DNA of 64,000 nucleotides from Acetivibrio alkalicellulosi (GTDB lineage Bacteria; Bacillota; Clostridia; Acetivibrionales; Acetivibrionaceae): NCBI GenBank assembly GCA_008125075.1, contig VLTH01000002.1:893688-957687 (forward strand), in the 5' to 3' direction. Below, in pieces: positions 9,748-43,726 of the stretch. The position numbers and the translations under genes were made by a program. The stretch's first letter is position 1. The number at the start of each line of letters is the position of its first letter. Under the pieces are notes generated by a model. It was not told where the DNA came from. It did no database searches and saw only the letters and a program-made list of their open reading frames with translations.

Positions 9748-10015
9748 GATATATCCTCCTTTTTACAAAAATCTTAAATAAACAAAACCATTAAAGTAAG
9801 ATTTAGAGTTTAATATAGTTTTATTTTGTCTTTTTTAAGGGAAATTATTATAAGGTTTTAAAAGGTTAATTTTACATGATAAAATGTGAACGTGAACAAA
9901 AGTTGAGGACATCACTTTGTTACAAGACTTCTAACAAAAAAAAAGGGCTGTTGTAAAATGAATAAAAATCCATAGCACATCAGTCCTTTTTGTATTTTTA
10001 GAGTAGAGAAATAAT
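9748..10015. other. Intergenic region with a partial family C repeat
   Basis: Nothing coding seen. 9910-9940 (ACTTTGTTACAAGACTTCTAA) matches the right half of repeat family C. An A-rich stretch follows, then AGGGCTGTTGTAAAATG. No terminator with a clear stem was identified for the operon ending at 10016. Confidence 0.4.
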
Positions 10016-10360
10016 TCAATCCATTCCAGATATCAAAAGATAAATGAGTATTATCAACAAATAGTCATCATGTGTTTTTTCCTCCAACAATAAAAATATC
10101 AATCCTAAAAGTATTACTTCGTCAGTTTTAAAACGTTTTGACAATATATCTTTTAAAGAGGCTCTTTTGCTTTGATTAAAATTATCTGAGGATTTCTTGT
10201 TAGTATCGTCATTTGAATTACTTATAGTATCAATTTCATTTGGAAGAGGAATATCCTCAATTTCTTTATCCCTATCAGAATCATTTCTTGTATTATTAAA
10301 GTTTCTAGAATTATTATTTATAAAGTATTTTCTTCGTCTGGGAACCATACCATATATCAT
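10016..10360 (-). CDS. Small clostridial protein with hydrophobic C-terminus
   Basis: 114 aa; the ATG at 10360 has AAAGGGGG just upstream. The N-terminal half is hydrophilic, rich in Asn, Asp and Ser (NNNSRNFNNTRNDSDRDKE) and probably disordered. The C-terminal ~40 residues are an acidic-flanked hydrophobic stretch (ILLGLIFLLLEEKTHDDYLLIILIYLLIS). I recall this LIFLLLEE/DD-LLIILIYLL pattern from short conserved proteins of spore-forming clostridia, but I cannot name a function. It is the third gene of a leftward trio (10772, 11195, 10360) next to sleB. A role in sporulation is an inference from context only. Confidence 0.65.
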   Translation of the reverse strand: MIYGMVPRRRKYFINNNSRNFNNTRNDSDRDKEIEDIPLPNEIDTISNSNDDTNKKSSDNFNQSKRASLKDILSKRFKTDEVILLGLIFLLLEEKTHDDYLLIILIYLLISGMD

Positions 10361-10373
10361 TTTAGTCCCCCTT

Positions 10374-10772
10374 TCATACGCTTTTTTCTATATCAGTCAT
10401 TAAATTGGTTATATGAAACATTTGGAATAATTTAATACAATCACCAACCTTTTTTTGTCTGGTATTGTTTAAAAATGGTCTTATTGCAGTTAACAGATTA
10501 ATTCTAGGATCATCAACTAAGTTTTCATCATTCATAATATTTTTTACTTTGCGAATAAATTCTATATTTTTATCAAACCCATCTTCTGATTTATTCTTTT
10601 CTGTATTTTTTGTACCACCCTCAGAAGTGGCTTTATTTGTGTCAGGAGGAGGTTCTTCTTTTTTTGCCGAGTTTGCCAATAAGGATAATACATTGGTTAA
10701 ATTTTCAGACATATTTTCATTACCTAAAAGATCTGCAATTTGTTTTATCTTTTCAGTTAAATCTTCACTCAT
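10374..10772 (-). CDS. Small conserved clostridial protein, function unknown
   Basis: 132 aa. The ATG at 10772 is chosen; AGGAGGTGA lies 11 nt upstream, and the upstream GTG at 10784 would overlap that site. The first third predicts short helices (SEDLTEKIKQIADLLGNENM), then a Pro/Thr/Lys-rich low-complexity linker. The C-terminal half has the most conserved-looking stretch (DDPRINLLTAIRPFLNNTRQKKVGDCIKLFQM). It has no signal peptide and no recognised domain. It lies 13 bp upstream of the next gene in the same direction, so the two are probably cotranscribed. Confidence 0.65.
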   Translation of the reverse strand: MSEDLTEKIKQIADLLGNENMSENLTNVLSLLANSAKKEEPPPDTNKATSEGGTKNTEKNKSEDGFDKNIEFIRKVKNIMNDENLVDDPRINLLTAIRPFLNNTRQKKVGDCIKLFQMFHITNLMTDIEKSV

Positions 10773-10868
10773 AAAATAAATCACCTCCTAAAAACGCCTA
10801 CGCTACAAGGTTTTCATCATAAAAGTTTTCTAAAAAATACAAACTTTTTGAGAAGAATAGTATAACTT

Positions 10869-11195
10869 TTATATTTTTTGCAAGAGAGCTTTAAATTTTT
10901 CTGTTAGTTCGTTTCCTCTTTCGCCAAGAAGAGCTGCTAGTCTATCAAGGTCTGCATTATTTATTCTCTTTTTTATTTCATTTTTATCTACATTTAACTC
11001 TTTTAATTTTGACTCATCAAAGTTATTTATTTTTTCAATTAAGTCATCTTTATCCATTTTGTTAATTCTTCTTGCAAGCTCTTCTATATTTCCACTATTA
11101 AGCATATCTAAAGCGGATGCAATTTTTGCCTGCACAATTCTCTCGTCCATTTTTCCAAATAGTTCTGATATTCTTTTATTAAATGAATCGCTCAT
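10869..11195 (-). CDS. Small helical protein, function unknown
   Basis: 108 aa; the ATG at 11195 is preceded by AAAGGG at about 8 nt. The sequence is highly charged and predicted to be almost all helical, with a repeated pattern (INKMDKDDLIEKINNFDESKLKELN; INNADLDRLAALLGERG). No known motif is recognised. It is the first gene of the leftward trio; about 97 bp separate it from the next gene, and that gap contains a family F repeat fragment. The group lies upstream of sleB in the same direction. Confidence 0.65.
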   Translation of the reverse strand: MSDSFNKRISELFGKMDERIVQAKIASALDMLNSGNIEELARRINKMDKDDLIEKINNFDESKLKELNVDKNEIKKRINNADLDRLAALLGERGNELTEKFKALLQKI

Positions 11196-11221
11196 ATAAT
11201 CAACCCTTTCATAATTTTTCA

Positions 11222-31200: not shown

Positions 31201-33595
31201 ACTTAAAGGAATTTTGGTTTTACTTGTAATTTTATTAAATATATTTAGTGTAAAGGTATTTAGCACACAAAGCACAGATATTATTATTTCAAATTACAGT
31301 CAATCTGTAGCTACTGTTAATAACAACAATCCTTTTGAATTTTCAATGGTTATAGAAAACTCTTCAGGTCATTCATTGGAAGATGTTTTTATGTCAGTTG
31401 ATAGAAGTTCGGCTTTTTATATCGTTCAAAATCAGCCTCAGGTGATAGCATTAGATAATTTAAAAATAGGAAAAAGTCAACAAGTTAGATTTAACCTAGT
31501 TTATAAGGGTTCAGGAAATGAATTAACACTGTCTTTTAATTATAATAAAGATGAACAGTCCTATCAGACACAACATACAGTTTATCTTAATGCTTCAGAG
31601 AGAAGGGAGCCATCATCAGCTGGAACTCAAATTGATACTTCAAAACTAAGACCAAATTTTGTAGTTAATGACAAAGTCAAAACTAAACAAGGAGAATCAG
31701 GAAATCTTTTAGTAGAAATTCCTATAAAAAATTCATCTTCTCACAGTGCTAGAGATATTACAATTACTATGGCAGCAGATTCAGCTGACTTTCCTTTTAT
31801 GGCAAATAGCAGCAATTTGACTATTCAATTAGATGAGCTAAAAGCTAATGAGGAAAAAAAGGTAATTCTTGACTTGATTGTCAAACCAAACACTAGAACG
31901 GATACATATCCATTAAAGCTTGAGTTTAGATACAATAATTTACATAGAGACTATTTTACATCAATGGAAAATGTATTTATAAAGGTTGAAAACAATGAAA
32001 AGACTCCTGTGTTATCCTTAAAAGATATAAAATTTGATGTTGAGACACCTTCGGCAGGTGAAAAATTTAAAGCTTCTTTTGAGTTTGAAAACAGGGGAAC
32101 TCTTGAGGCAAAGGATATAAAGGTAACTTTAAAGGGGTTTAATGAAAAAGGGATTATTCCAGAGTTTACAGGTGTAAAGTACATAAATTCCATTCAAGGG
32201 GGAAAAACTGGGAAAGTAGACTATAACCTTATTGTATCAAATGACATAGGTGTAGAAAACTATCCTCTTGAAGTAGTAATTGAATATGAGGATGAATACA
32301 GAGATTCATATACTGTAAGTTACACCCATTATGTTTCTATAATGCTAAAGGAAGTTCAAAAGTCATCAGTTAGGGTTGATAATATAACTTCTCCTAAGAG
32401 CAAAATACTACCTGAAAAGGACTTTAATATAGACTTTGACATTATTAATGATGGGCCTTCAAAGGTTTCAAATGTAAAAGTAACACTTTCTTCTGGAAGT
32501 GAGATAATTAATAAATCTCAAAGCATAATTATGATAGAAACATTACAGCCTGATGAAGCGAGAAGAATACAACATATTTTATATCCAGTATCAGATGCAG
32601 CAACTAAAAACTATCCAATTGAAATTAGTATTGAATATAAAGATGGAGAAGAAATGCAAAGAATTACCCGATATGTAGGGGTATTTGTAGAGAACAATAA
32701 AAGTGATGAGACTAATTCTTCAATTCCACGTCTAATAATAGACCGTTACAGTGTTTCAACGGGGCAGGCTGTTGCAGGGCAGAGTTTTGATATAGATATA
32801 GGAATATTAAACACTCATAAAAATATTACAGTAAGCAATATAGGGGTATCTTTCCTAGGGGAAGAAGGAGTGTTTATTCCATCTGCTGGTAGTGGAAGCA
32901 CAATTTTTATTAGTGAAATAAAACCAGGAACAAGAACTGAAAGAACTCTGTCCTTTGACACAAAATTTAGTGCAGAACCAAAGAGTTATTTACTAAATGT
33001 TAGTTTTGAATATGAAGATGAAAATCAAAGGCAGCATACTCTAAAAGAGAGTATTAGCATTTCGGTGGTTCAGGAACACAAGCTTGAAATGAGTGATATT
33101 GAAATAACTTCAAATGTTCAAATAGGTCAAAGGATACCCATAAAACTTGACTTTTACAATATGGGAAGATCAACTCTTTATAACATGATGGTTAAATGTG
33201 TTGGTGATTTTGACATTATTGACGGCAATTATTTTGCAGGCAATTTTAATTCTGGCAGAAGCGATTATTACGAAGCTACAATAATTCCCACAAAAGAAGG
33301 TCAGATAAAAGGAGCTGTTGTTTTTACATTTGAAGACAGTATGGGAAACAAAGTGGAAGAACAGAAGGAATTTGAATTATCTGTTGATGAAGCTAGAGAT
33401 ATGGGAGATATGTATGACTTTCATGAAGGCATGATAGAGCATGAATTTACAATGCCAGGTAGTGGGCTAAACATGAAAGCTATACTTTTAATGCTTTTGA
33501 TTATACCAGTTGTAATAACTGCTATTATTGTTACAGTAGTTATTATTGTAAGAAAGAGAAAGAAAGCGAGTGCTGATTTATATGAAAATTTCTGA
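31187..33595 (+). CDS. Large extracytoplasmic protein with repeated CARDB/NEW3-like domains and C-terminal membrane anchor
   Basis: 802 aa; the ATG at 31187 follows GTGGAGGG. Signal peptide at ~1-27. About five or six tandem beta-sandwich units, each ~110-120 residues, contain motifs such as NPFEFSMVIENSS, VEIPIKNSSSHSARDI, FKASFEFENRGTLEAKDIKVTL, INDGPSKVSNVKVTL and FYNMGRSTLYNMMV, and each ends with a YPL-x-IEYEDE-type strand. This is the pattern of CARDB/NEW3-type adhesion domains (COG1361-like). A C-terminal transmembrane helix and a Lys/Arg tail (VVIIVRKRKK) anchor it. Tight overlap with the ATPase and permease suggests it is a periplasm-like adaptor or substrate-binding partner of the exporter. 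Confidence 0.82.
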   Translation: MNRIRLKGILVLLVILLNIFSVKVFSTQSTDIIISNYSQSVATVNNNNPFEFSMVIENSSGHSLEDVFMSVDRSSAFYIVQNQPQVIALDNLKIGKSQQVRFNLVYKGSGNELTLSFNYNKDEQSYQTQHTVYLNASERREPSSAGTQIDTSKLRPNFVVNDKVKTKQGESGNLLVEIPIKNSSSHSARDITITMAADSADFPFMANSSNLTIQLDELKANEEKKVILDLIVKPNTRTDTYPLKLEFRYNNLHRDYFTSMENVFIKVENNEKTPVLSLKDIKFDVETPSAGEKFKASFEFENRGTLEAKDIKVTLKGFNEKGIIPEFTGVKYINSIQGGKTGKVDYNLIVSNDIGVENYPLEVVIEYEDEYRDSYTVSYTHYVSIMLKEVQKSSVRVDNITSPKSKILPEKDFNIDFDIINDGPSKVSNVKVTLSSGSEIINKSQSIIMIETLQPDEARRIQHILYPVSDAATKNYPIEISIEYKDGEEMQRITRYVGVFVENNKSDETNSSIPRLIIDRYSVSTGQAVAGQSFDIDIGILNTHKNITVSNIGVSFLGEEGVFIPSAGSGSTIFISEIKPGTRTERTLSFDTKFSAEPKSYLLNVSFEYEDENQRQHTLKESISISVVQEHKLEMSDIEITSNVQIGQRIPIKLDFYNMGRSTLYNMMVKCVGDFDIIDGNYFAGNFNSGRSDYYEATIIPTKEGQIKGAVVFTFEDSMGNKVEEQKEFELSVDEARDMGDMYDFHEGMIEHEFTMPGSGLNMKAILLMLLIIPVVITAIIVTVVIIVRKRKKASADLYENF

Positions 33596-34946
33596 TATAT
33601 TTAGTATGTCATTTAAGAATTTAATGAGACGAAAAATCAGGACACTGCTTACATTAATAGGAGTTTTAATTGGTACAACATCAATTACAGTTATGATGTC
33701 AATAGGTGTTGGTATGGATAAATCCGTCAACGAACAATTACGTAGTTTTGGAAGCTTAAACACAATACAGGTGTATGGTTCTAGCTTCTACTTTTACTCT
33801 GACGATGGAGAAAATAATGAAAAACAAAAACTAGATGATGATGCAGTTTTAAAGTTTTCACAAATAAAGGGAGTTGAAGCTGTATCTCCAGAGTTAGAGG
33901 CTCATTTGAGAATAACTTCAGGAAATTATGAGGCACATGTTTCAATGGTAGGAATAGATCCTTCTATAATGGAACTGTTTGACTATAATATTGAAAAGGG
34001 AAGACTCTTAAATGAAAATGACGATGGGGCTATTGTATTTGGAAGTAATGTGCCTAATTATTTTTATAACCCGAGGGATTCTGGTGAAATGGGGTATAGA
34101 ATGTTTATGATTGATGGAGAGCCTCCGGTAGATGTACTAAATGATAATCTAAAAATGTTCTATAATTCATACCATTTTGGAGAAGAAGTGGGACGAGAAA
34201 GAGGTTATAATGTTTACGGAGTAGGAGTATTAAGACAAAACTGGGAAAATGACTACAGGGCATATATCAACATAGATTATCTAAAAAAAATAATGAAGGA
34301 TAATGATAGAAAACAACGGCAGCAAGCCCAGTCAGATGAAGTGTTTTCACCTATGGGACGTTCATCTAATTCTCAATCTGATGAGTATTCTAAAGTACTT
34401 GTAAAAGCAAAAGACTTAAATGACGTAGAGAGAATTCAGCAAGTAATAAAAGATATGGGCTACAATGCTTATAGCTTAGCAGAAATGAGAAATGAAACCA
34501 ATAAAATAATGATGATTATACAGGCTATATTAGGAGCTTTAGGGGCAATATCTCTTTTAGTTGCTGCATTAGGAATAACAAATACAATGTATATGTCAAT
34601 ATATGAAAGGACTAAAGAAATAGGGGTAATTAAGGTTTTAGGATGTTATTTATCAGATATTCGAAAAATATTTTTAGTAGAGGCTGCTTTGATTGGTTTA
34701 ATTGGAGGAGTCATTGGAATGGCTTTAAGTTATATTATTTCAAGCACTATTAATTTTGCGGCATCATATTTTATGGGATCTATGGATCCAGGTCAGGAGC
34801 AAATAAAGATTTCAATTTCAATAATACCAATTTGGTTAGTCTTTTTTGCAATTGGTTTTGCCATACTTGTAGGTGTTGTAGCCGGATATTTTCCATCTAG
34901 AAGGGCTATGAAGATAAGTGCCTTAGAGGCTATTAGAAATGAGTGA
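33582..34946 (+). CDS. MacB-like ABC transporter permease (FtsX family)
   Basis: 454 aa from the ATG at 33582, overlapping the preceding gene by 14 bp. One N-terminal helix (TLLTLIGVLIGTTSITVMMSIGVGM), a ~240-residue extracytoplasmic MacB periplasmic-core domain, then three C-terminal helices in the FtsX pattern (AILGALGAISLLVAALGITNTM; TKEIGVIKVLGCY; VEAALIGLIGGVIGMALSYII; PIWLVFFAIGFAILVGVVAGYFPSRRAMKISALEAIR). The topology matches MacB-like permeases. It works with the ATPase encoded two genes upstream. The sensor kinase gene follows after 100 bp on the same strand. Confidence 0.92.
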   Translation: MKISDIFSMSFKNLMRRKIRTLLTLIGVLIGTTSITVMMSIGVGMDKSVNEQLRSFGSLNTIQVYGSSFYFYSDDGENNEKQKLDDDAVLKFSQIKGVEAVSPELEAHLRITSGNYEAHVSMVGIDPSIMELFDYNIEKGRLLNENDDGAIVFGSNVPNYFYNPRDSGEMGYRMFMIDGEPPVDVLNDNLKMFYNSYHFGEEVGRERGYNVYGVGVLRQNWENDYRAYINIDYLKKIMKDNDRKQRQQAQSDEVFSPMGRSSNSQSDEYSKVLVKAKDLNDVERIQQVIKDMGYNAYSLAEMRNETNKIMMIIQAILGALGAISLLVAALGITNTMYMSIYERTKEIGVIKVLGCYLSDIRKIFLVEAALIGLIGGVIGMALSYIISSTINFAASYFMGSMDPGQEQIKISISIIPIWLVFFAIGFAILVGVVAGYFPSRRAMKISALEAIRNE

Positions 34947-35046
34947 TTTTATTTTATTTATTGACATTGGGAAAACTTCAAAAACAATGTATTACAGGGG
35001 AGACACCTCTGGGATACAGAATATTGTATAAATGAGGTGATATCCA

Positions 35047-36981
35047 ATGAAACTACAGACGAAAATGATTTTAATTTTTTCTGCTTTAATTATGATTATG
35101 GCATTAATCTTAAGTATGTACATATATACAGAATCTATTGAATTAATTACAGAATCATTAGGTGTAAAAACTGTAGGAATTTTAGATGTTGTAATAGAAA
35201 AAATAGAAACAGATGATTTACAAATAGTAATAGATAAAGTTAAAAAGGTACAAGAATCTAACGGTGATATGTCTGATATTTTAACTATGGAGGAGTATGT
35301 GAGCCTTAGACAGAAGTTATTTGACTTTAGAGATGTCTATGGTATTAAGTATTTATACATTATGACAAGGGGACATGATGATGAATTAATATATGTAGTA
35401 GATGGATTCCCGTTAGATTACAAGGGTAAAGATATCTCAATGCCAGGGGATGTTGAGAAAAATAATTATGAGTATTTAGAACTTACATTTGAAGAGAAAA
35501 AGAGTTTTATAGGTGAGATGACAAAAGACGCAAAATGGGGGGCAAACTACACATCCTATACTCCCATATTTAATGATAAGAATGAAATGATAGGTGCGTT
35601 AGGTGTTGACGTAGAAGCAGAGGACGTGTTTGAACTTATGACTAAGAATAAGCATAAGGTAATATCTTTTACCATACTTGCTGTGGTTCTTACTATTCTT
35701 GTATCCTGGATTTTTTCAAGAGTTATTTTTGCGCCCCTAAAAAATCTTGCTCTTAAGGTTAGAAAAGTTAAAGAGGGTGATTTGTCTGCGAGGTTTGACA
35801 GGGAATCAAATGATGAAATTGGTGAACTAGCAGATGTGTTTAATAATATGGTAAGTGTTTTTTATGACAATGAACAAAGCCTCTATAAAACTCTTGTAGA
35901 TTTATCTAAGTCCCGAACAATTAAAGATTTAGAGAAAAAGATAGTGGAAAACATTAAACACACAGTTTCTTTTAGTGGAGCTGAAATTTTAGTATTTGAT
36001 GGTGAAAAGTTTTTGAGTGACGTTAAGGATTTAAATGTAAAAGACAATGAAATTATAGAAACATTACAACAGATTGCTTACAACAAAAGAATTGGTGATA
36101 TTATAGAATATGATGATAAACATTTATCTTTGATAGGTTTGGTAAATGGCAAATATAGTTTTCTTCTGATGAATACTAAAGGCATTGAACTAAGTCAACG
36201 AGATAAATTTACAATAAGGCTTATTTCTAGATATACAGCTATATTTTATGAAAATCTATTATTAATTGAAGAGTTATCAAATAAGATTATGAATTATCAG
36301 AATGAAGGTAGCGTACCACCTTGGATGAGCAAACTTTATTTACAGATGTCTGAAAAGGAGAGAAAGAGACTGGCATCAGATTTGCATGATGAGCTATTAC
36401 AGGACATTATAAAAATGAAGAGATCTGTAGCTAATTTACTAAACAATGAATCTTTTTATAAAGACGATAATATAAAAGCATTAAAGAGTTTAGAGGATGA
36501 ATTTGATAGTGTAATAGCACTGATAAGGGAAACATGTAATGATTTATTGCCCTCTTTTCTTTTAGAGAAGGGTGTGGTAAGAGCAATAGAACGGTTAATT
36601 GAAAAAGCTCAATTAAAGCACAATATAAATATAAATTTTGAATCAATAAACATAAGAACGAAAATTGAAAGCCTTGAATATGAAGAAGTGTTGACAGTAT
36701 ACAGAGTTGTTCAGGAACTAATAAACAATGCTGTTGCACACTCAAAAGCTACTGATGTTGATATAATGCTAAGGCAGGACAAAGATATGTTTTCAATATA
36801 CTACAATGATAATGGAGTAGGTATGGAGTTTGAAGCAGAAGTTGACCTCTCTAAACACCTGGGATTTTATGGCATAAAAGAAAGAATCAAACTTTTAAAT
36901 GGAAGAGTAGCTTGTTATTCTAAGGCAGGCAAAGGTCTTGAGGTATCATGTCAATTCCCTATAAAAAGAAACATTGCATAG
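35047..36981 (+). CDS. Membrane sensor histidine kinase, HisKA_3 (NarX/DegS) type
   Basis: 644 aa. Transmembrane helix 1 (~8-28), an extracytoplasmic sensor of ~170 residues resembling a Cache domain (FDFRDVYGIKYLYIMTRG; NYTSYTPIFNDKNEMIGALGVDVEAEDVF), transmembrane helix 2 (~201-220), a HAMP linker (LKVRKVKEGDLSARFDRESNDEIGELADVFNNM), a GAF-like middle, then the dimerisation/phospho-acceptor domain with His447 (SDLHDELLQD) and an HATPase domain (ELINNAVAHSKA; NDNGVGM; GFYGIKERI). Its type pairs with NarL-family regulators, and such a regulator is encoded 0.6 kb further on the opposite strand. The location after the ABC exporter suggests sensing of an exported or envelope-related signal. Confidence 0.9.
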   Translation: MKLQTKMILIFSALIMIMALILSMYIYTESIELITESLGVKTVGILDVVIEKIETDDLQIVIDKVKKVQESNGDMSDILTMEEYVSLRQKLFDFRDVYGIKYLYIMTRGHDDELIYVVDGFPLDYKGKDISMPGDVEKNNYEYLELTFEEKKSFIGEMTKDAKWGANYTSYTPIFNDKNEMIGALGVDVEAEDVFELMTKNKHKVISFTILAVVLTILVSWIFSRVIFAPLKNLALKVRKVKEGDLSARFDRESNDEIGELADVFNNMVSVFYDNEQSLYKTLVDLSKSRTIKDLEKKIVENIKHTVSFSGAEILVFDGEKFLSDVKDLNVKDNEIIETLQQIAYNKRIGDIIEYDDKHLSLIGLVNGKYSFLLMNTKGIELSQRDKFTIRLISRYTAIFYENLLLIEELSNKIMNYQNEGSVPPWMSKLYLQMSEKERKRLASDLHDELLQDIIKMKRSVANLLNNESFYKDDNIKALKSLEDEFDSVIALIRETCNDLLPSFLLEKGVVRAIERLIEKAQLKHNININFESINIRTKIESLEYEEVLTVYRVVQELINNAVAHSKATDVDIMLRQDKDMFSIYYNDNGVGMEFEAEVDLSKHLGFYGIKERIKLLNGRVACYSKAGKGLEVSCQFPIKRNIA

Positions 36982-37004
36982 AGAAGCTTGTTTACTGCTA
37001 GTTT

Positions 37005-37095
37005 CCGAAAAAAAACCGAAAAAAGACCGAAAGAAAGTAATGTTGAAATTTTTCGGTTTTTCTTCGGTGACAGTTTAAAATACATGTGGTATTAT
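37005..37095 (+). promoter_or_regulatory. Promoter P1 with phased CCGAA/TTCGG operator
   Basis: CCGAA occurs at 37005, 37016 and 37027 (exactly 11-bp steps). The inverted form TTCGG occurs at 37052 and 37063 (11 bp). The last G of the second TTCGG begins the -35 box GTGACA (37067-37072), followed by a 17-bp spacer and TATTAT (37090-37095). The same arrangement recurs at two promoters near 38.35 kb. It would drive a rightward transcript into a region without a clear gene. Confidence 0.75.
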
Positions 37096-37099
37096 TTAT

Positions 37100-37305
37100 A
37101 TATTAAGTGAAGTTGCTAACTTAACTTCTATTGAAACTTATTGAGGATGGCGTAAAAGTAATTATTTAAAAAATGTTGATTATAAAAGGGGATTGATTAA
37201 GTAGGATATTTTGAATAAAAGAAGCAGAGGATTATTGAATTTATATACAGTATTATTTACAAATTCTTATTAGTAAGATTTCTAAAAATATCCCCTTTTT
37301 TATTA
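37100..37305 (+). ncRNA. Candidate small RNA expressed from promoter P1
   Basis: Starting about 7 nt after the P1 -10 box, the region holds no convincing ORF. AAAAGGGGA (37184-37192) can pair with TCCCCTTTT (37290-37298), which is followed by TTATTAT; this closes a domain of about 100 nt and could end transcription. A 12-codon frame with a TTG start (MNLYTVLFTNSY) behind CAGAGG near 37230 is possible but weak. Whether this is an RNA or a leader is open. Confidence 0.3.
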
Positions 37306-37381
37306 TAAATATCGATGAGGGATGGATTGTAAGTTATATCTATTCCTCATTGTATTTTAAATATCACTTATGCAAATATAT

Positions 37382-37425
37382 ATCGCAGCGGAAGCTGCAA
37401 TCGAAGTAGTAAGTTCCGCTGCGAT
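37382..37425. repeat. 12-bp perfect inverted repeat, then a family F copy
   Basis: ATCGCAGCGGAA (37382-37393) and TTCCGCTGCGAT (37414-37425) are exact inverses with a 20-nt loop. An inverted copy of repeat F follows at 37431-37459. The remainder of 37310-37570 shows nothing else. Confidence 0.75.
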
Positions 37426-37572
37426 AAACAGAGGAACTATATCTTCTGAAAAGTTTGATAAAAAAGCAAACTATTTGAAAATAATAGTATATAAAAATAA
37501 TAGTATATAAAAATATGGTTTAATGTGGTGGAATGTTGGTAGTTATATAGTACGACAAACAATTGCAATAAG

Positions 37573-37616
37573 ATAAGAAACCAGGATCCTTTTGGGTTTG
37601 GTTTCTTGTCTTTTTA
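37573..37616. terminator. Bidirectional intrinsic terminator after the regulator gene
   Basis: AAGAAACCA/TGGTTTCTT forms the stem. The plus strand continues GTCTTTTT, and the minus strand has the same stem directly after the regulator stop codon, with a weaker tract TATCTTATT. Confidence 0.65.
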
Positions 37617-38252
37617 TCAGCTTTTTATAAGATTTAGATTGAAGGCTTTTTTAATAGCATAAACCCGTGAAGTTACATTAAGTTTTTTGTAAATGCTACT
37701 AAGATGGTATTCAACGCTACGCTGGACTAATTGAAGGTTTTCAGCAATTTCTTTATTTGTTTTGCCAAGTGCAGCTTGTTGAAGGACTTCCGACTCTATT
37801 TGGGTTAAAGGCTGCTCTATGGAGTAGCTATTCCTATCAATTTCACTTTTGCATATATTTAGTTTTCTTACGAATTTTACAGGTAGCAGCATCATTTTTT
37901 CTGTTGCCATTTTAATTCCTGTAACCAATTGTTGATCAGTACAGGACTTATCAAGAATTCCGCTTACTCCAGATTCCATTAGGACATCAAAGTTATCTGA
38001 AATGTTTTCACCCGATAGAATAACAATTATGGCGTCAGGATATATTTTTAAAGTCTTCTTTGTTAACTCTAAACCATTCATGTCGGGCATTTTTAAATCA
38101 TAAACCATTGCATCAAAAGAGCGATTTTTAAGAAGTTCTAAAGCTTCAGTTCCTGAGTTACATATAGTGGCATGTATATGGTAGTTTTTAAGCAATGATT
38201 TAAATCCACTTAGTATTGATATGTGATCATCAACCATTAAAATTTCAAGCAT
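37617..38252 (-). CDS. NarL/FixJ-family response regulator
   Basis: 211 aa. The receiver domain has the acidic pair MVDDH, phospho-acceptor D52 (VYDLKMPDMNG), the Ser of LSGE and the Lys of LDKS. The C-terminal LuxR-type helix-turn-helix reads LTQIESEVLQQAALGKTNKEIAENLQLVQRSVEYHLSSIYKKLNV. It is the probable partner of the HisKA_3 kinase at 35.0-37.0 kb. Its own promoter (38319-38351, minus strand) carries the phased TTCGG repeats shared with two other nearby promoters, so autoregulation is likely. The binding motif itself is inferred, not demonstrated. Confidence 0.92.
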   Translation of the reverse strand: MLEILMVDDHISILSGFKSLLKNYHIHATICNSGTEALELLKNRSFDAMVYDLKMPDMNGLELTKKTLKIYPDAIIVILSGENISDNFDVLMESGVSGILDKSCTDQQLVTGIKMATEKMMLLPVKFVRKLNICKSEIDRNSYSIEQPLTQIESEVLQQAALGKTNKEIAENLQLVQRSVEYHLSSIYKKLNVTSRVYAIKKAFNLNLIKS

Positions 38253-38318
38253 ATTATTATTTCACTCCAAACATTTCTAATCTCTCAAGCTCCAATTATA
38301 AATCTAATATAATAATAC

Positions 38319-38362
38319 ATTATATCACGGTTTTTATTGCTAATCACCGAAGAAAAACCGAA
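38319..38362 (-). promoter_or_regulatory. Promoter P2 of the response regulator gene with phased operator
   Basis: On the minus strand TTCGG repeats at 11-bp spacing (plus-strand CCGAA at 38347 and 38358) end in the -35 box GTGATT (38342-38347), then 17 bp and a perfect TATAAT (38319-38324). The gene start is 67 bp downstream of the -10 box. Confidence 0.8.
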
Positions 38363-38382
38363 ATAGATTGTTGTTGGTTTTT

Positions 38383-38426
38383 TTCGGTTTTTCTTCGGTG
38401 ACAAAAATTAAAAAGTATGATAATAT
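38383..38426 (+). promoter_or_regulatory. Promoter P3, divergent from the regulator, with phased operator
   Basis: TTCGG at 38383 and 38394 (11 bp apart), then GTGACA (38398-38403), a 17-bp spacer and TAATAT (38421-38426). With P2 it forms a 19-bp perfect inverted repeat (38346-38364 versus 38381-38399). It points toward the 51-aa ORF at 38525. Confidence 0.8.
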
Positions 38427-38524
38427 GTGATTACTAGACAAATGGAAAAAAAGGGATATGTTATTATATCGAAGAATAAAAGGATAACTTAGGATTGATA
38501 ATAATAAGAAAGTGGGGTTCTGTT

Positions 38525-38680
38525 ATGAAAAAGTACTTACTGATTTTAGTGCTTATTGGTATATTGGCGGTTTTACTTGCAGGAAATTTCACGTATCAAT
38601 TAGGGGTTTTTAGAAGAACCTCAACTAATTATGGCTGCAACATCCACCGCATTTATGAATGTTTGGACAATCATTGTTAG
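38525..38680 (+). CDS. Putative 51-aa secreted or membrane peptide under promoter P3
   Basis: The ATG at 38525 follows GTGGGG. The sequence begins MKKYLLILVLIGILAVLLAG, a textbook signal or anchor segment, and the rest is short, with three Cys (NYGCNIHRIYECLDNHC). It is the first ORF after the P3 promoter. Its last ~56 bases overlap the 3' end of the FmdB-type gene in antisense, so the true C-terminus could have been lost in a rearrangement. The function is unknown; a peptide signal or target of the two-component system is a speculation from position. Confidence 0.45.
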   Translation: MKKYLLILVLIGILAVLLAGNFTYQLGVFRRTSTNYGCNIHRIYECLDNHC

Positions 38681-38843
38681 TGGAGTTTTTTGACTTAATT
38701 ATATTTACATTCTTAAAAATTGGCTCAAGAATATTATTAGCACAAACAGGGCATTTAATAAGATTTTCACTACGATCACTCATTTTTGCCATTATATTAA
38801 ATTCATTTCCGCATTTTTTACACTTTAGATCATAAAAAGGCAT
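38625..38843 (-). CDS. FmdB-family small zinc-ribbon protein
   Basis: 72 aa; the ATG at 38843 is preceded by AGGAGATG. It begins MPFYDLKCKKCGNEFNIMAKMSD and has CPVC, giving the four-Cys zinc ribbon of the FmdB putative regulatory protein family (CxxC...CxxC). The tail has further Cys/His residues (CPNIHKCGGCCSHN), as is common in the family. The role of these proteins is not established. It is a single gene, converging with the small peptide ORF. Confidence 0.85.
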   Translation of the reverse strand: MPFYDLKCKKCGNEFNIMAKMSDRSENLIKCPVCANNILEPIFKNVNIIKSKNSTNNDCPNIHKCGGCCSHN

Positions 38844-38909
38844 TTTTACATCTCCTCTTTTTTTAATGATCATATTATAGCATATTAAAGTATATCAATG
38901 CAATATACT

Positions 38910-39734
38910 TCAATTTCGCTTTAGAAACCCTAAGCTTTTAAGCTTTTCTTTATCTGCTGCTAAAATATAAACATTAGTTATTAGGAGTAATACAATGCTT
39001 ACTATAAGAACTGTAATAATAAGGGGGTATTGACCGCTAAAGCCTGAGGCTGAAGTGTGTTTAATCAGAATTCCTATATAAGCCCAGGTAATAACAAGTC
39101 CATAGGAGAAGTCTTGATTTTTGATAATTGTCAAGCCTCCAATAAATAGTCCAACAATCAAGACAAATATTGTCCATATCCAAGGCGCTATACCAAAGCC
39201 ATTCCAGTCTATACTAACGAGATATGTAGTTACATTAGCAATTGTAGCAACTGTTATCCATCCGAAGTAAATGCTAAAGGGAATCTGTACAAATATTTTT
39301 TCTTTTAGTGAAAGCTTATATTGCTTTAATTTATGGTTAATTATTATAAGGCAAATCAAAATAACAATTATTAATATTAATGATAAAGCAATAGCTAGGT
39401 AATGCCATGCAAATATCCAGGCAGTATTTGCAATAGACGTAATTGAAAATAGTATGCCGATTTTTTCAGGGATGCTGGGGTTAAATGTACTATCTTTGCT
39501 TATAAAAAAATTAAATTGATATATTATATAAGCTGCAAGCAAAAAATAAATAACTGCCCATATAGAAAAAGTAATTCCTGCCGGAGCAAAAAGATTAGGA
39601 AATGAATCTGAAACTTGACCTGTGGTTATTCCATTAAAGGGAATAAGGTTTGCCAATATGTTTATAACAATCATAAATATAAAAGAAACGGTAGTATGAA
39701 CCTTAGTAAAAATACTTACAGTATTTTCATTCAT
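38910..39734 (-). CDS. TspO/MBR-like tryptophan-rich membrane protein
   Basis: 274 aa; the ATG at 39734 follows AAGGAGTGC. Seven or eight membrane helices. Family-like pattern: PNLFAPAGITFSIWAVIYFLLAAYIIYQ, TAWIFAWHYLAIALSLILI, KIFVQIPFSIYFGWITVATIANVTTYL, and a Trp-rich later segment. This is the extended form found in Firmicutes, longer than the ~160-aa TspO proper, so ligand specificity cannot be inferred. Single gene, divergent from the MATE exporter. Confidence 0.75.
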   Translation of the reverse strand: MNENTVSIFTKVHTTVSFIFMIVINILANLIPFNGITTGQVSDSFPNLFAPAGITFSIWAVIYFLLAAYIIYQFNFFISKDSTFNPSIPEKIGILFSITSIANTAWIFAWHYLAIALSLILIIVILICLIIINHKLKQYKLSLKEKIFVQIPFSIYFGWITVATIANVTTYLVSIDWNGFGIAPWIWTIFVLIVGLFIGGLTIIKNQDFSYGLVITWAYIGILIKHTSASGFSGQYPLIITVLIVSIVLLLITNVYILAADKEKLKSLGFLKRN

Positions 39735-39803
39735 AATTAGCACTCCTTTTTATCTCAATTCAAGCATTCCAACTTGAAAAGGTAGATTTTCTCTTAAAAC
39801 TAC

Positions 39804-39852
39804 TAAGGATTAACTAAAATAGTAGTGAAAGTTATATTTTCAGCAATCCTAA
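39804..39852. repeat. Family A palindromic repeat between tspO-like and MATE genes
   Basis: TAAGGATTAACTAAAATAG at the left and GTTATATTTTCAGCAATCCT at the right are imperfect inverts; the right end is identical to that at 42870-42892. Confidence 0.7.
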
Positions 39853-40027
39853 GGACAATAACTGACAAAAAAAAATAACTATCGCCATACTATCATATTT
39901 TATGTTATAATACAATAATGTATTTATAACTATCAGTTCAAAACACCATGTCACAAGATGAAAATGTCTAATGTAGGTGATGAAAAGAATATCTACGGAA
40001 TAGTATATGTAGTAGTAAGGAGAAGTT

Positions 40028-41398
40028 ATGAAGACTATTATAAACACTGTATTTTGTAAAGATAATGAGTTTTACAGAAAATTTTTCAGCATTGCAATCC
40101 CTACAGCTATACAAAGTTTTATTGCTTCTGTTGTAAATATGATTGACAATATTATGGTTGGTCGTTTAGGTGACGCAAGTATAGCAGCTGTTGGTCTTTC
40201 CAATCAGTATTATTTTGTATTGCATCTTATTTTATTTGCCATAACCAGTGGAGCTGCTGTTTTTTTCTCTCAGTATTGGGGTAGTAAAAATTTAACTAAC
40301 ATAAAAAAAATAATGGGCTTATGCCTTGGCTTTACTTTTATAACTTCTTTAGTATTTTTTGTGGCGGCTTTTTTTCTGCCAGAGAAAATAATATCTATAT
40401 TTTCAGAGGATCCTCAGGTAATTGAACTTGGAGGGAGTTATCTTGTAATTGTCTGTTTTAGCTTCATAATTATGCCCTTTTCAATTACCTTTGGTACGGC
40501 ATCAAGGAATACGGGAAACATAAGGCTTCCTCTAACTGCAAATATTATAGGTATAATATTAAATGCAATATTAAATTTTGTACTAATATTTGGTATGCTT
40601 GGTTTTCCTAGAATGGGTATACCTGGTGCGGCTTTGGCAACAGTTATTGCAAGACTTGTGGAAGCCACAATTCTAATTTCTACAATATACATTAAAAAAC
40701 ACATAACAGCAGGAAGTCTAAAAGAATTTTTTTATATTCCAACCAGCTTAATTAAAAAGTTTATAAAGACATCAAGTGGAGTAATTGCTAAGGATGTTGT
40801 ATGGGTTGTTGGGGTAACTGCATATATGGCTATTTATGCCCGTATTGGGACTGAGGCTGTAGCTGCTATAAACATTGTTGACACAATAAGGCGTCTCATG
40901 TTTGTTTTCTTTCATGGTGTGGCAAGTGCTTGCCTTATCATGGTTGGAAATCAGATTGGTGCAAAATCTTATGATACAGCCTATTTATATGCTAAGAGAT
41001 TTTTAAGTATTACATTTTTATGTAGTTTAATAATATGTATTTTGACAATTTCCTTTAGATTTTTGTTCCTAATGCCATATGATATATCTCAGGATGCTAG
41101 AATGGCGGCATATAATATACTATTTATTGTTGGTATTATACTTATTTTAGATGTATTTAATATGGTATGTATTATTGGGGTTTTAAGAAGTGGTGGAGAT
41201 GTTAATTTTTGCCTATTTCTTGATATTACATGTGTGTGGCTTATAGGAATGCCAATGGCATTATTAGGTGCCTTTGTATTGAAGTTGCCGTTAGAAGGTG
41301 TTTATCTTATGGTTGTATTCCAGGAAGTATTCAAGTTTGCATTGTGTTATAAGAGGTTTGTGTCACGAAAATGGATTAATGATCTAGTAAATGTATAA
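40028..41398 (+). CDS. MATE family efflux transporter
   Basis: 456 aa; AAGGAGAAG precedes the ATG. Twelve membrane helices in two halves. The N-half shows FFSIAIPTAIQSFIASVVNMIDNIMVGRLGDASIAAVGLSNQYYF and the second half repeats the fold (AAINIVDTIRRLMFVFFHGVASACLIMVGNQIGAKSYDTAYLYAKR). These are the canonical MATE signatures of cation-coupled exporters of drugs and other small molecules. Substrate unknown. Single gene followed by 345 bp of non-coding DNA. Confidence 0.92.
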   Translation: MKTIINTVFCKDNEFYRKFFSIAIPTAIQSFIASVVNMIDNIMVGRLGDASIAAVGLSNQYYFVLHLILFAITSGAAVFFSQYWGSKNLTNIKKIMGLCLGFTFITSLVFFVAAFFLPEKIISIFSEDPQVIELGGSYLVIVCFSFIIMPFSITFGTASRNTGNIRLPLTANIIGIILNAILNFVLIFGMLGFPRMGIPGAALATVIARLVEATILISTIYIKKHITAGSLKEFFYIPTSLIKKFIKTSSGVIAKDVVWVVGVTAYMAIYARIGTEAVAAINIVDTIRRLMFVFFHGVASACLIMVGNQIGAKSYDTAYLYAKRFLSITFLCSLIICILTISFRFLFLMPYDISQDARMAAYNILFIVGIILILDVFNMVCIIGVLRSGGDVNFCLFLDITCVWLIGMPMALLGAFVLKLPLEGVYLMVVFQEVFKFALCYKRFVSRKWINDLVNV

Positions 41399-41743
41399 GT
41401 GAAAAATGTTTAATATATCAAAATATTAACATAACTGCATTATACTTATGTAGACATAAAACCAATTTAGTGATAAAATATAATTAAGATATTTTTTAAT
41501 GCATTTCATAATTTTTTAATATTTTGCATAGTTTCTCATAACAAAATCATAATGTATTTTAGTCTTTTCGTGTTTAATTCTGTAAATTTGTGTTTAGGGT
41601 ATTAATAATATTTATGCAATTTGCAGTTAATCTTGAAGTTATCGTACTTAAATAGTAAAATTAAAAATATATATTTATATGTGAGTATAGAACATAGTTA
41701 TGATTGGATATAAGATAAAACATTATGGGGGGAGAATTTTTTA
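41399..41743. other. Intergenic region upstream of the ddl operon
   Basis: About 345 bases, extremely AT-rich. I see no gene, no strong terminator for the MATE gene and no clearly spaced promoter. GGGGGGAGAA at 41726-41735 is the ribosome site of ddl. Confidence 0.4.
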
Positions 41744-42847
41744 ATGAGCCATAAAAGAAAAGTTTTAGTTATATTTGGAGGAAAATCATCAGAACATGAA
41801 ATATCTAGAATATCCGCTGCATCTGTAATAAAAAACATTGATACTGAGAAATTTGAAGTAGCTATGTTAGGGATAACAAAGGAAGGAAAGTGGCTACCAT
41901 ACAATGGTGATGTTGAAATGATTCCAACTGGTCAGTGGGAAGAACTATCACTAAAATCAAGGGTACAGGTTTTAGGTGAAAAGGACAATTTAATTAACTA
42001 CTTATCAGATTGCAAAACTAATTTTAGTGGTATAGATAACATAGATGTTGTTTTTCCTGTTCTTCATGGATGTAATGGCGAAGATGGAACAATTCAGGGA
42101 TTTTTTGAATTAGCTTCGATACCATATGTTGGATGTGGTGTTTTAGGCTCGGCTCTTTGCATGGATAAGGTATATACAAAGATGGTTTTTGAGAAAATTG
42201 GTATTCCCCAGGCAAGGCATTTGCATTTTACAAGAAAGGAAATAGAACGAGATATTTCACAAATAAGTGACAAAATAGAAGCCGAATTTGATTACCCTGT
42301 TTTTGTAAAACCTTCTAATGCAGGGTCTTCTGTAGGGGTTTCTAAGGCAAGTAATAAAAATGAACTATTTAGGGCGTTGAATTATGCTTCAAGATATGAT
42401 AAAAAAGTAATGGTTGAAGAATTTATTAATGGTAGAGAAGTAGAGTGTGCTGTTTTGGGTAATGACGAGCCAATTGCATCCATAGTTGGTGAAATAGTTC
42501 CAAGTAATGATTTTTATGATTACAAGGCAAAGTATATCGACAATAAATCAAAAATGATAATTCCTGCAGATCTTCCAAAGGATACTGTGGAAAAAGTTAG
42601 AGACTATGCAGTTAAAGCGTTTAAAGCGCTAGATTGTAGTGGATTGTCAAGAGTTGATTTTTTTGTAGATAAGGAAACAGATGCAGTATTTATAAATGAA
42701 ATTAACACTATGCCTGGTTTTACTAGTATTAGTATGTATCCTGCTCTATGGGAAGCATCGGGTATTTCTTATGGAGAGTTAATTGAAAGATTAATTGATT
42801 TAGCTGTTGAAAGATATGAAGATAATAAAAAACAAATTAATGATTAA
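41744..42847 (+). CDS. ddl: D-alanine--D-alanine ligase
   Basis: 367 aa; GGGGGGAG before the ATG. ATP-grasp enzyme: VIFGGKSSEHEIS near the N-terminus, FPVLHGCNGEDGTIQGFFEL, YVGCGVLGSALCMDK, FVKPSNAGSSVGVSK and the metal-binding FINEINTMPGFTSISMYPALW. It joins two D-alanines for peptidoglycan precursor synthesis. The stop codon lies inside the edge of a family A repeat. It is followed by murI, which provides D-glutamate, so the pair forms a cell-wall operon. Confidence 0.96.
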   Translation: MSHKRKVLVIFGGKSSEHEISRISAASVIKNIDTEKFEVAMLGITKEGKWLPYNGDVEMIPTGQWEELSLKSRVQVLGEKDNLINYLSDCKTNFSGIDNIDVVFPVLHGCNGEDGTIQGFFELASIPYVGCGVLGSALCMDKVYTKMVFEKIGIPQARHLHFTRKEIERDISQISDKIEAEFDYPVFVKPSNAGSSVGVSKASNKNELFRALNYASRYDKKVMVEEFINGREVECAVLGNDEPIASIVGEIVPSNDFYDYKAKYIDNKSKMIIPADLPKDTVEKVRDYAVKAFKALDCSGLSRVDFFVDKETDAVFINEINTMPGFTSISMYPALWEASGISYGELIERLIDLAVERYEDNKKQIND

Positions 42848-42893
42848 GGATTAGCTGAAATATTAGAGAAGGTTATATTTTCAGCAATCCTAA
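42845..42893. repeat. Family A palindromic repeat between ddl and murI
   Basis: TAAGGATTAGCTGAAATATT and GTTATATTTTCAGCAATCCT plus A are inverted ends of a minimal ~49-bp copy. The first three bases are the ddl stop codon. It would form a strong hairpin in the ddl-murI transcript. Confidence 0.8.
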
Positions 42894-42919
42894 GCTTATT
42901 TCTAATGGGGGAATTTTTT

Positions 42920-43726
42920 ATGGATAATAGACCTATTGGTGTTTTTGATTCAGGTTTGGGGGGCCTTACAGTTTTAAATGAAATAAATAACCTATTACCT
43001 TTAGAAAGTATAGTTTATTTTGGAGACAGTGGAAGAGCACCCTATGGTACAAAATCAGAAGAAACTGTTATAAAGTATACTTTTCAGGATATAAGGTTTC
43101 TTTTAAATCAGGATATTAAGATGATTGTAATTGCCTGTAATACTGCAAGTGCGTGTAGTCTTAAGCTTGTAAAAAACAACTTTGACATACCTGTAGTAGA
43201 AGTTGTACAACCTGGAGCTTCAACTGCTGTAACCAAAACAAAGAATAAGAAAATAGGAGTTATAGGAACTTTAGCAACAATTAGCAGTGGGGTTTATGAA
43301 AAGGCCATTGGTAAGTTAGATCCAGAAATAGAGGTTTTTTCAAAGGCTTGTCCCATGTTTGTGCCATTAGTTGAAGAGGGCTGGTGGGAAAATGACATTG
43401 CACAGAGAATAGTTGAAGAGTATATGTTACCCTTAATGGAACAGGGTATAGACACCGTGGTTTTAGGGTGTACCCACTATCCCCTTTTACAGCATACCAT
43501 TTCAAAAGTAATGGGGGGAAGCGTTACACTTGTAAATTCGGCCTTGGAAGTTGCCAAGGTAGTAAAGGAGGTTATAGACCAGGAAAAAATTCAAAGAGAC
43601 TCAATGATTGCACCAGTGTATAGGTACTATACAAGTGATAGTATTAAAAAGTTTGAATCTCTAGGTAATTCCATTTTAAAAGGAAAAATACATTCTGCTG
43701 AAAAAGTTGATATTGAGAGATATTAG
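42920..43726 (+). CDS. murI: Glutamate racemase
   Basis: 268 aa; the ATG at 42920 follows ATGGGGGAA. Motifs: PIGVFDSGLGGLTVL at the start, the two catalytic Cys in IACNTASA and LGCTHYPLL, and YFGDSGRAPYG. It makes D-glutamate from L-glutamate for peptidoglycan. Downstream of ddl in the same direction, separated only by a family A repeat. Confidence 0.96.
   Translation: MDNRPIGVFDSGLGGLTVLNEINNLLPLESIVYFGDSGRAPYGTKSEETVIKYTFQDIRFLLNQDIKMIVIACNTASACSLKLVKNNFDIPVVEVVQPGASTAVTKTKNKKIGVIGTLATISSGVYEKAIGKLDPEIEVFSKACPMFVPLVEEGWWENDIAQRIVEEYMLPLMEQGIDTVVLGCTHYPLLQHTISKVMGGSVTLVNSALEVAKVVKEVIDQEKIQRDSMIAPVYRYYTSDSIKKFESLGNSILKGKIHSAEKVDIERY

Follow-up and report, generated by a model that had tools for sequence, protein, structure and literature searches.

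A predicted ComA-like regulatory circuit built on phased direct-repeat promoters at a two-component locus of Acetivibrio alkalicellulosi

Organization of the two-component locus

The window considered here, that is, the whole stretch of 64,000 nucleotides of the A. alkalicellulosi genome that was analysed, contains a sensor histidine kinase gene, the gene of a response regulator on the opposite strand and three promoter-like sequences (P1 to P3) arranged around them. The features of the locus are as follows.

35047 to 36981, plus strand: sensor histidine kinase gene, 644 aa (HAMP, HisKA_3 and HATPase_c by Pfam)
37005 to 37031, minus strand: upstream arm of P1, three CCGAA words in 11-bp steps (sequence; the arrangement CCGAAA-N18-TTTCGG is common to P2/P3 and P4)
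37051 to 37067, plus strand: direct repeat of P1, TTTCGG-N5-CTTCGG (pattern search and sequence)
37067 to 37095, plus strand: P1, with -35 box GTGACA, 17-bp spacer and extended -10 box TGG-TATTAT (sequence)
37102 to 37301, plus strand: putative P1 transcript, perhaps non-coding, both ends predicted from the sequence
37617 to 38252, minus strand: NarL/LuxR-type response regulator gene, 211 aa, with a ComA-like helix-turn-helix (HTH) (Pfam, PDB comparison, orthologs and alignment)
38319 to 38363, minus strand: P3, the regulator's own predicted promoter, TTTCGG-N5-CTTCGG, GTGATT, 17 bp, TGA-TATAAT (pattern search and sequence)
38382 to 38426, plus strand: P2, the predicted divergent promoter, TTTCGG-N5-CTTCGG, GTGACA, 17 bp, TGA-TAATAT (pattern search and sequence)
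38525 to 38680, plus strand: hydrophobic open reading frame (ORF) of 51 aa downstream of P2, doubtful as a gene (ORF list)

A sequence-only reading of the window had described paired TTCGG words at the three promoters, and its coordinates, 11-bp phasing, overlap with the -35 box, 17-bp spacer and -10 boxes were all confirmed. In particular, TTCGG starts at 37052 and 37063 and at 38383 and 38394 on the plus strand, and at 38362 and 38351 on the minus strand; the last G of the downstream word is the first base of the -35 box (GTGACA, GTGACA and GTGATT in P1, P2 and P3, respectively), and a spacer of 17 bp leads to TATTAT, TAATAT and TATAAT. The three CCGAA copies at 37005, 37016 and 37027 with the same period, and the location of P1 after the kinase gene, were likewise found as described. 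Furthermore, all three promoters present an extended -10 element (TGN directly before the -10 box), which was absent from that reading. Judged by the extended -10 consensus of sigma-A, the -10 boxes are of this type, and an ECF-type sigma promoter was rejected. The roles given to the two divergent promoters, on the other hand, had to be exchanged: P2 had been taken to drive the regulator gene and P3 to diverge from it, but since this gene lies on the minus strand, it is P3 that drives it, through a leader of presumably about 60 nt, and P2 points away.

The ORF behind P2 has no relative at an E value of 0.001 in the other 59 genomes of our set and no Pfam or NCBIfam match at the same threshold; possibly, it belongs to a disrupted gene for a small membrane protein or is not a gene at all. 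It overlaps the end of an antisense zinc-ribbon gene (38625 to 38873), and within 38525 to 38693 a second frame continues the hydrophobic stretch.

Within the window, all same-strand TTCGG pairs less than 45 bp apart are spaced by 11 or 22 bp, and the exact string TTCGGN6TTCGGTGA did not occur in 60 simulated 64-kb windows with the neighbour-base frequencies of the window. Moreover, the words form a mirror-image layout: CCGAAA-N18-TTTCGG is found at P1, at P2/P3 and at a distant promoter, P4 (see below), and nowhere else in the genome, and in each case it continues with N5 and then CTTCGG or TTTGGG, with an extra CCGAA word 11 bp upstream. As this spacing was first noticed on these very sites, it describes them and provides no independent test. 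The slightly looser MCGAAA-N18-TNTCGG, whose reversed control gave 7 matches in the window's genome, was uninformative beyond that genome, with counts at or below the control in most others.

The regulator, its kinase and their counterparts in other genomes

The regulator presents a receiver domain (PF00072) and a LuxR/GerE-type HTH (PF00196), both above the Pfam cut-off. When the HTH alone was compared with 20 solved sequences, ComA ranked first and second (2krf and 3ulq), with identity at 27 of the 56 aligned residues, whereas the full-length protein found its best match, among 18 solved sequences, in VraR and its next in NarL, not in ComA. The domain order of VraR and NarL is that of the window regulator, and they differ from it in that its HTH alone scores ComA higher; to our knowledge, no TTCGG direct repeat has been described for either. 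No ComA model appeared among the 25 NCBIfam families listed of 94. As for the kinase, its sensor region matched sCache_3_3 below the cut-off (20.5 versus 28.8 bits), and the structural model of this region (pLDDT 79) gave weak matches, with TM-scores of about 0.4, to WalK, KinD and chemoreceptor PAS/Cache sensors, so that an extracytoplasmic Cache/PAS-like domain is probable.

Orthologs of the regulator were identified in 4 of the 59 other genomes (designated G008, G009, G040 and G017), with 54 to 67% identity, all remaining matches being at or below 34%. At the level of the order, 5 of 58 genomes, the window's own included, matched the regulator at E 1e-35; at the level of the class, at least 2 of 391 did so at E 1e-40 (its own and G008), among up to seven candidates scored per genome. 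Upstream of the regulator gene in all four ortholog-bearing genomes, we could notice CGGTG followed by 17 bp and a -10-like hexamer in both directions, although the P3-type sites of all four were located by eye, and those of G040 and G017 have just TAAACT as the -10 box. G008 and G009 have TTTCGG as the -35 word, G040 and G017 have TTGCGG, and in the latter two the step of the direct repeat is 21 bp.

The divergent neighbors of the four orthologs include in every case a TraB/PrgY/GumN-family protein, together with SLH matches in G008, G009 and G017. The TraB/PrgY/GumN-family gene comes first in G009, behind a 395-aa gene in G008 and behind a signal-peptidase-II-like gene in G040 and G017; the TraB part has no match in the window's genome at E 1e-8. 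The kinase gene of G009 falls into two ORFs (L048: 8897 to 9190 and 11310 to 12869), and the ORFs between them (9898 to 11197) look transposase-like by eye.

Both G040 and G017 have a P1-like promoter directly after the kinase gene, and the kinase and regulator genes of G008 and G009 converge at a distance of 8 bp or less, which leaves no room for P1. The transcript predicted for P1 in the window would end at a stem formed by AAAAGGGGAT (37184 to 37193) and ATCCCCTTTT (37290 to 37299) and followed by a T run. Its fold is no better than that of shuffled sequences (z = -0.43), and its sequence is not clearly similar to that of the G040 and G017 counterparts (L049 and L050). The sequence downstream of the promoter is conserved between these two, with an outer stem and a terminator, and folds better than shuffles (z = -2.5 and -4.5, respectively); since only 2 of 37 pairs changed on both sides, the structure is suggested and not proven. 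Rfam gave no family at its gathering score in the window or in the L050 stretch. A CsrA-sponge RNA, considered because of GGAT at 37145, 37190, 37204 and 37229, was dropped, as no such repeats were seen by eye in the G040 and G017 transcripts. An inverted repeat without a T run, TATCGCAGCGGAA...TTCCGCTGCGATA (37381 to 37426), lies between the P1 transcript and the 3' end of the regulator gene.

Distant promoters and co-occurrence with the regulator

The genome-wide search that the sequence-only reading had proposed was carried out. The exact motif, TTCGG-N6-TTCGGTGA, occurs three times in the 5.3-Mb genome, always in this locus, and never in the reversed control; a single copy was also found in each of 4 genomes among the other 59, all four lacking a regulator ortholog. 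With two mismatches allowed, the repeat matched 27 places in the window's genome and 62 in the reversed control, and it follows that most of these matches are noise. P4 (C3:566451, minus strand) has a single mismatch to the repeat, a 17-bp spacer and a TGG-TATTAT identical to that of P1, and precedes an ORF of 918 aa with a signal-like start (by eye), leucine-rich repeats (LRRs) and a dockerin. A pattern of the -35 word and extended -10, with two mismatches, gave 381 places and 471 in controls; exact among the matches listed were P1, P2 and C3:813546 (P5), and P3 also fits exactly. P5 lies directly upstream of a second LRR-dockerin gene, of 637 aa; both P4 and P5 were found by patterns built from the window promoters. 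The words of the repeat are separated by N5 in P1 to P4 and by N4 in P5, so that, given this 10-bp step and the 21 bp of G040 and G017, 11 bp is not a fixed rule. The 637-aa protein has 95 matched stretches in the genome, mostly in its dockerin part and several in the LRR parts of other genes; those other LRR genes are without an exact site, and the exact promoter pattern TKSGGTGA-N16-TGNTAWWWT found no site in this genome beyond P1 to P5. The sequence-only reading had expected few, local targets, but the predicted targets are not confined to the locus, as two distant LRR-dockerin genes have the promoter.

P1 and P4 are 75% identical over the spacer, the -10 box and the downstream sequence, compared to 45 to 53% for the other five pairs among P1 to P4, and may therefore stem from one duplication, to which part of their likeness may be due. 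It could then be argued that they are copies of a single operator whose geometry reflects descent and not function, the more so as the outward arms of both resemble P3 (TTCGGAAAYTAGCAGT). However, the core is retained amid differing surroundings at P5 and in four other genomes, and duplication and function are in any case compatible, so we regard descent alone as an improbable explanation, albeit one that deserves some weight.

The promoter pattern was then applied without mismatches to all 60 genomes. The five genomes with the regulator (26.8 Mb, the window's own included) gave 16 matches (5, 1, 1, 6 and 3), the 55 genomes without an ortholog (204.9 Mb) gave 8, and the reversed control gave 9 in the 60 genomes. 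None of the 16 matches of the first set falls within an open frame of 120 codons or more, whereas all 8 of the second do (the frame having 127 codons in one case). Because the pattern was shaped on sites already seen, 11 of the 16 were known beforehand; the five new ones are at C1:6254606 in G040 and on C7, C31, C39 and C60 in G017. Seven of the 16 lie away from the regulator and kinase genes, against a background expectation of 1.05 in all (P of about 1e-4 for seven). Most of the 20 sites that we tabulated show the extended -10 of sigma-A and a 17-bp spacer, features that the pattern itself fixed in 16 of them.

These results bear on whether a different protein, either another LuxR-type regulator or an alternative sigma factor, recognizes the sites, the neighboring regulator being one target among others. 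The genome does hold many other regulator-like stretches (80 first-look candidates, 51 of which were scored), but at E 1e-20 the regulator itself was the only one recovered; pattern matches outside ORFs are restricted, among the 60 genomes, to those bearing the ortholog; the -10 box and spacer are those of sigma-A at most sites, with the limit just given; and the HTH resembles that of ComA, whose literal box sits at predicted targets in two ortholog genomes. Hence, we consider another binder unlikely.

Most of the predicted targets have signal-like starts by eye. In G040, a target is a fibronectin-III protein. In G017, L179:253-9347 encodes a 2,706-aa protein that combines CARDB and VWA domains with a HINT pretoxin domain; a WG-repeat protein comes next, and the pair looks like a polymorphic toxin with its partner. 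Two related genes in G017 run off their contigs. A further G017 target (L181:540-782) is a peptide of 80 aa with a double-glycine leader, whose scores against bacteriocin models stay below threshold (19.6 of 21.5 bits for the cerein 7B type and 17.5 of 27.1 for Bacteriocin_IIc). Sequence comparison suggests that, both in this genome and in those of the four relatives, the regulator may control a limited group of proteins, most of them secreted.

Comparison with ComA and proposed mechanism

The sequence-only reading knew of no described regulon with this motif, yet a precedent exists in Bacillus subtilis, where ComA binds a direct repeat, TTGCGG-N5-TTGCGG (11-bp step), published as a non-canonical ComA site (PMC4797271, Wolf and colleagues). 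As reported there, the direct repeat lies between the inverted repeat and the -35 box at most ComA targets, and position 3 of its natural second word is occupied by T, not G. ComA of the ComQXPA system shares with the window regulator the combination of a receiver and a LuxR-type HTH; both systems have a direct repeat of TT(G/T)CGG-like hexamers with a 5-nt spacer near the -35 box, and the T at position 3 recurs in the window words. The sequence-only reading had proposed an activator that contacts the -35 region from one face of the DNA and an autoregulated circuit with its own operator, and the conservation in four genomes, together with the ComA precedent, speaks for both.

The published ComA box, TTGCGG-N4-CCGCAA, which was chosen independently of the sites described here, occurs 11 times in the 60 genomes (1 in G040, 3 in G017 and 7 elsewhere), compared to 8 occurrences of its reversed control, one of them in G040 and one in G017, so that the count proves little and it is the placement that tells. 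All four boxes of G040 and G017 lie upstream of a predicted promoter, with 54 to 57 bp from the box start to its T[TG]CGGTG element, and none of the seven boxes in genomes without the ortholog has such an element within 130 bp. The box on C37 of G017 (L192:631) is associated with a TTTCGGTGA promoter that lacks TGN and lies about 0.3 kb upstream of a MoxR-type AAA ATPase ORF, a candidate further target. No literal copy was found in the window's genome, G008 or G009.

Different from the B. subtilis system, the window word is TTCGG, mirror-image direct repeats (N18) occupy the place of the inverted repeat, and the predicted targets of window-type regulators are dockerin, TraB-family, bacteriocin-like and pretoxin genes. 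Kinases of the ComP type carry a membrane sensor; the window kinase has instead HAMP and a probable single-Cache sensor. No comQ or comX was noticed by eye among the ORFs at 32000 to 43000. ComQXPA-like loci occur in some Clostridiales, according to a census (PMC4008528). We did not file the system as ComA because the kinase, when tested, was of another type and the inverted-repeat box was absent from its own genome, but it probably works like ComA.

In Bacillus glycinifermentans (L053), the gene of a regulator with 48% identity is flanked on either side by TTGCGG-N5-ATTCGG direct repeats. After this gene come PqqD-like, transglutaminase-like, Asn-synthase-like and ABC-transporter genes, which we take to be lasso-peptide-like; no kinase gene was noticed by eye beside it. 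Two small precursor-like ORFs can be seen by eye at L053:7900-9050.

Since the TTCGG word overlaps the first base of the -35 box, the regulator could also cover this box, block RNA polymerase and repress its own gene, and P1 and P2, whose GTGACA matches TTGACA at five of six positions next to an extended -10, could fire alone. However, P3 matches TTGACA at only three of six positions, and ComA bound to the direct repeat near -35 activates through sigma-A (type II activation; PMC4797271), so repression appears to us rather unlikely. Finally, that the repeats are transcribed hairpins or bidirectional terminators with an incidental likeness to promoters is very improbable, because, despite the inverted repeat CACCGAAGAAAAACCGAAA...TTTTCGGTTTTTCTTCGGTG (about 38346 to 38400) and the Rfam matches at 38310 to 38432, all under the gathering scores of their families, the -35 word, spacer and -10 box persist in P5, G008 and G009 without a perfect inverted repeat.

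We thus favor, with a probability of roughly 0.78, a ComA-like, autoregulated and kinase-controlled class II activator that would drive P1 to P5. From the observed sequences, geometry, conservation, co-occurrence with the regulator and target families, we infer that the kinase, probably through a Cache-type sensor, would phosphorylate the regulator, a dimer of which would bind the two TTCGG-type half-sites, one helical turn apart, at the edge of the -35 box. The bound dimer would activate sigma-A promoters with an imperfect -35 box and an extended -10, and the mirror-image pair 18 bp upstream at P1, P2/P3 and P4 would bind further dimers. In this way, the regulator may activate its own gene (P3), the divergent transcript (P2), a possibly non-coding transcript downstream of the kinase gene (P1), and the genes of the two distant LRR-dockerin proteins (P4 and P5).

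The geometry of the repeat is already published for ComA (PMC4797271), and our literature search found no paper on the regulon itself; the main text of a study of transcription factor sites in Clostridium thermocellum (PMC8457756) contains neither LuxR, NarL nor TTGCGG. It is possible to hypothesize, tentatively and with less than even confidence, that in cellulosome-forming clostridia a ComA-type regulator rewired to a Cache-sensing kinase switches on a competition or surface regulon comprising dockerin-LRR proteins, a TraB/PrgY-family protein, a HINT pretoxin with its WG-repeat partner, a double-glycine bacteriocin-like peptide and a regulator-controlled non-coding RNA. Should this hold, the ComA type of response would extend beyond ComQXPA and would rest here on direct repeats paired as mirror images. 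More generally, the predicted sites and genes make up a regulon that can be tested in bacteria relevant to biomass breakdown. The direct-repeat ComA site of B. subtilis may also be a main type of site in a distant lineage whose kinase is of another kind.
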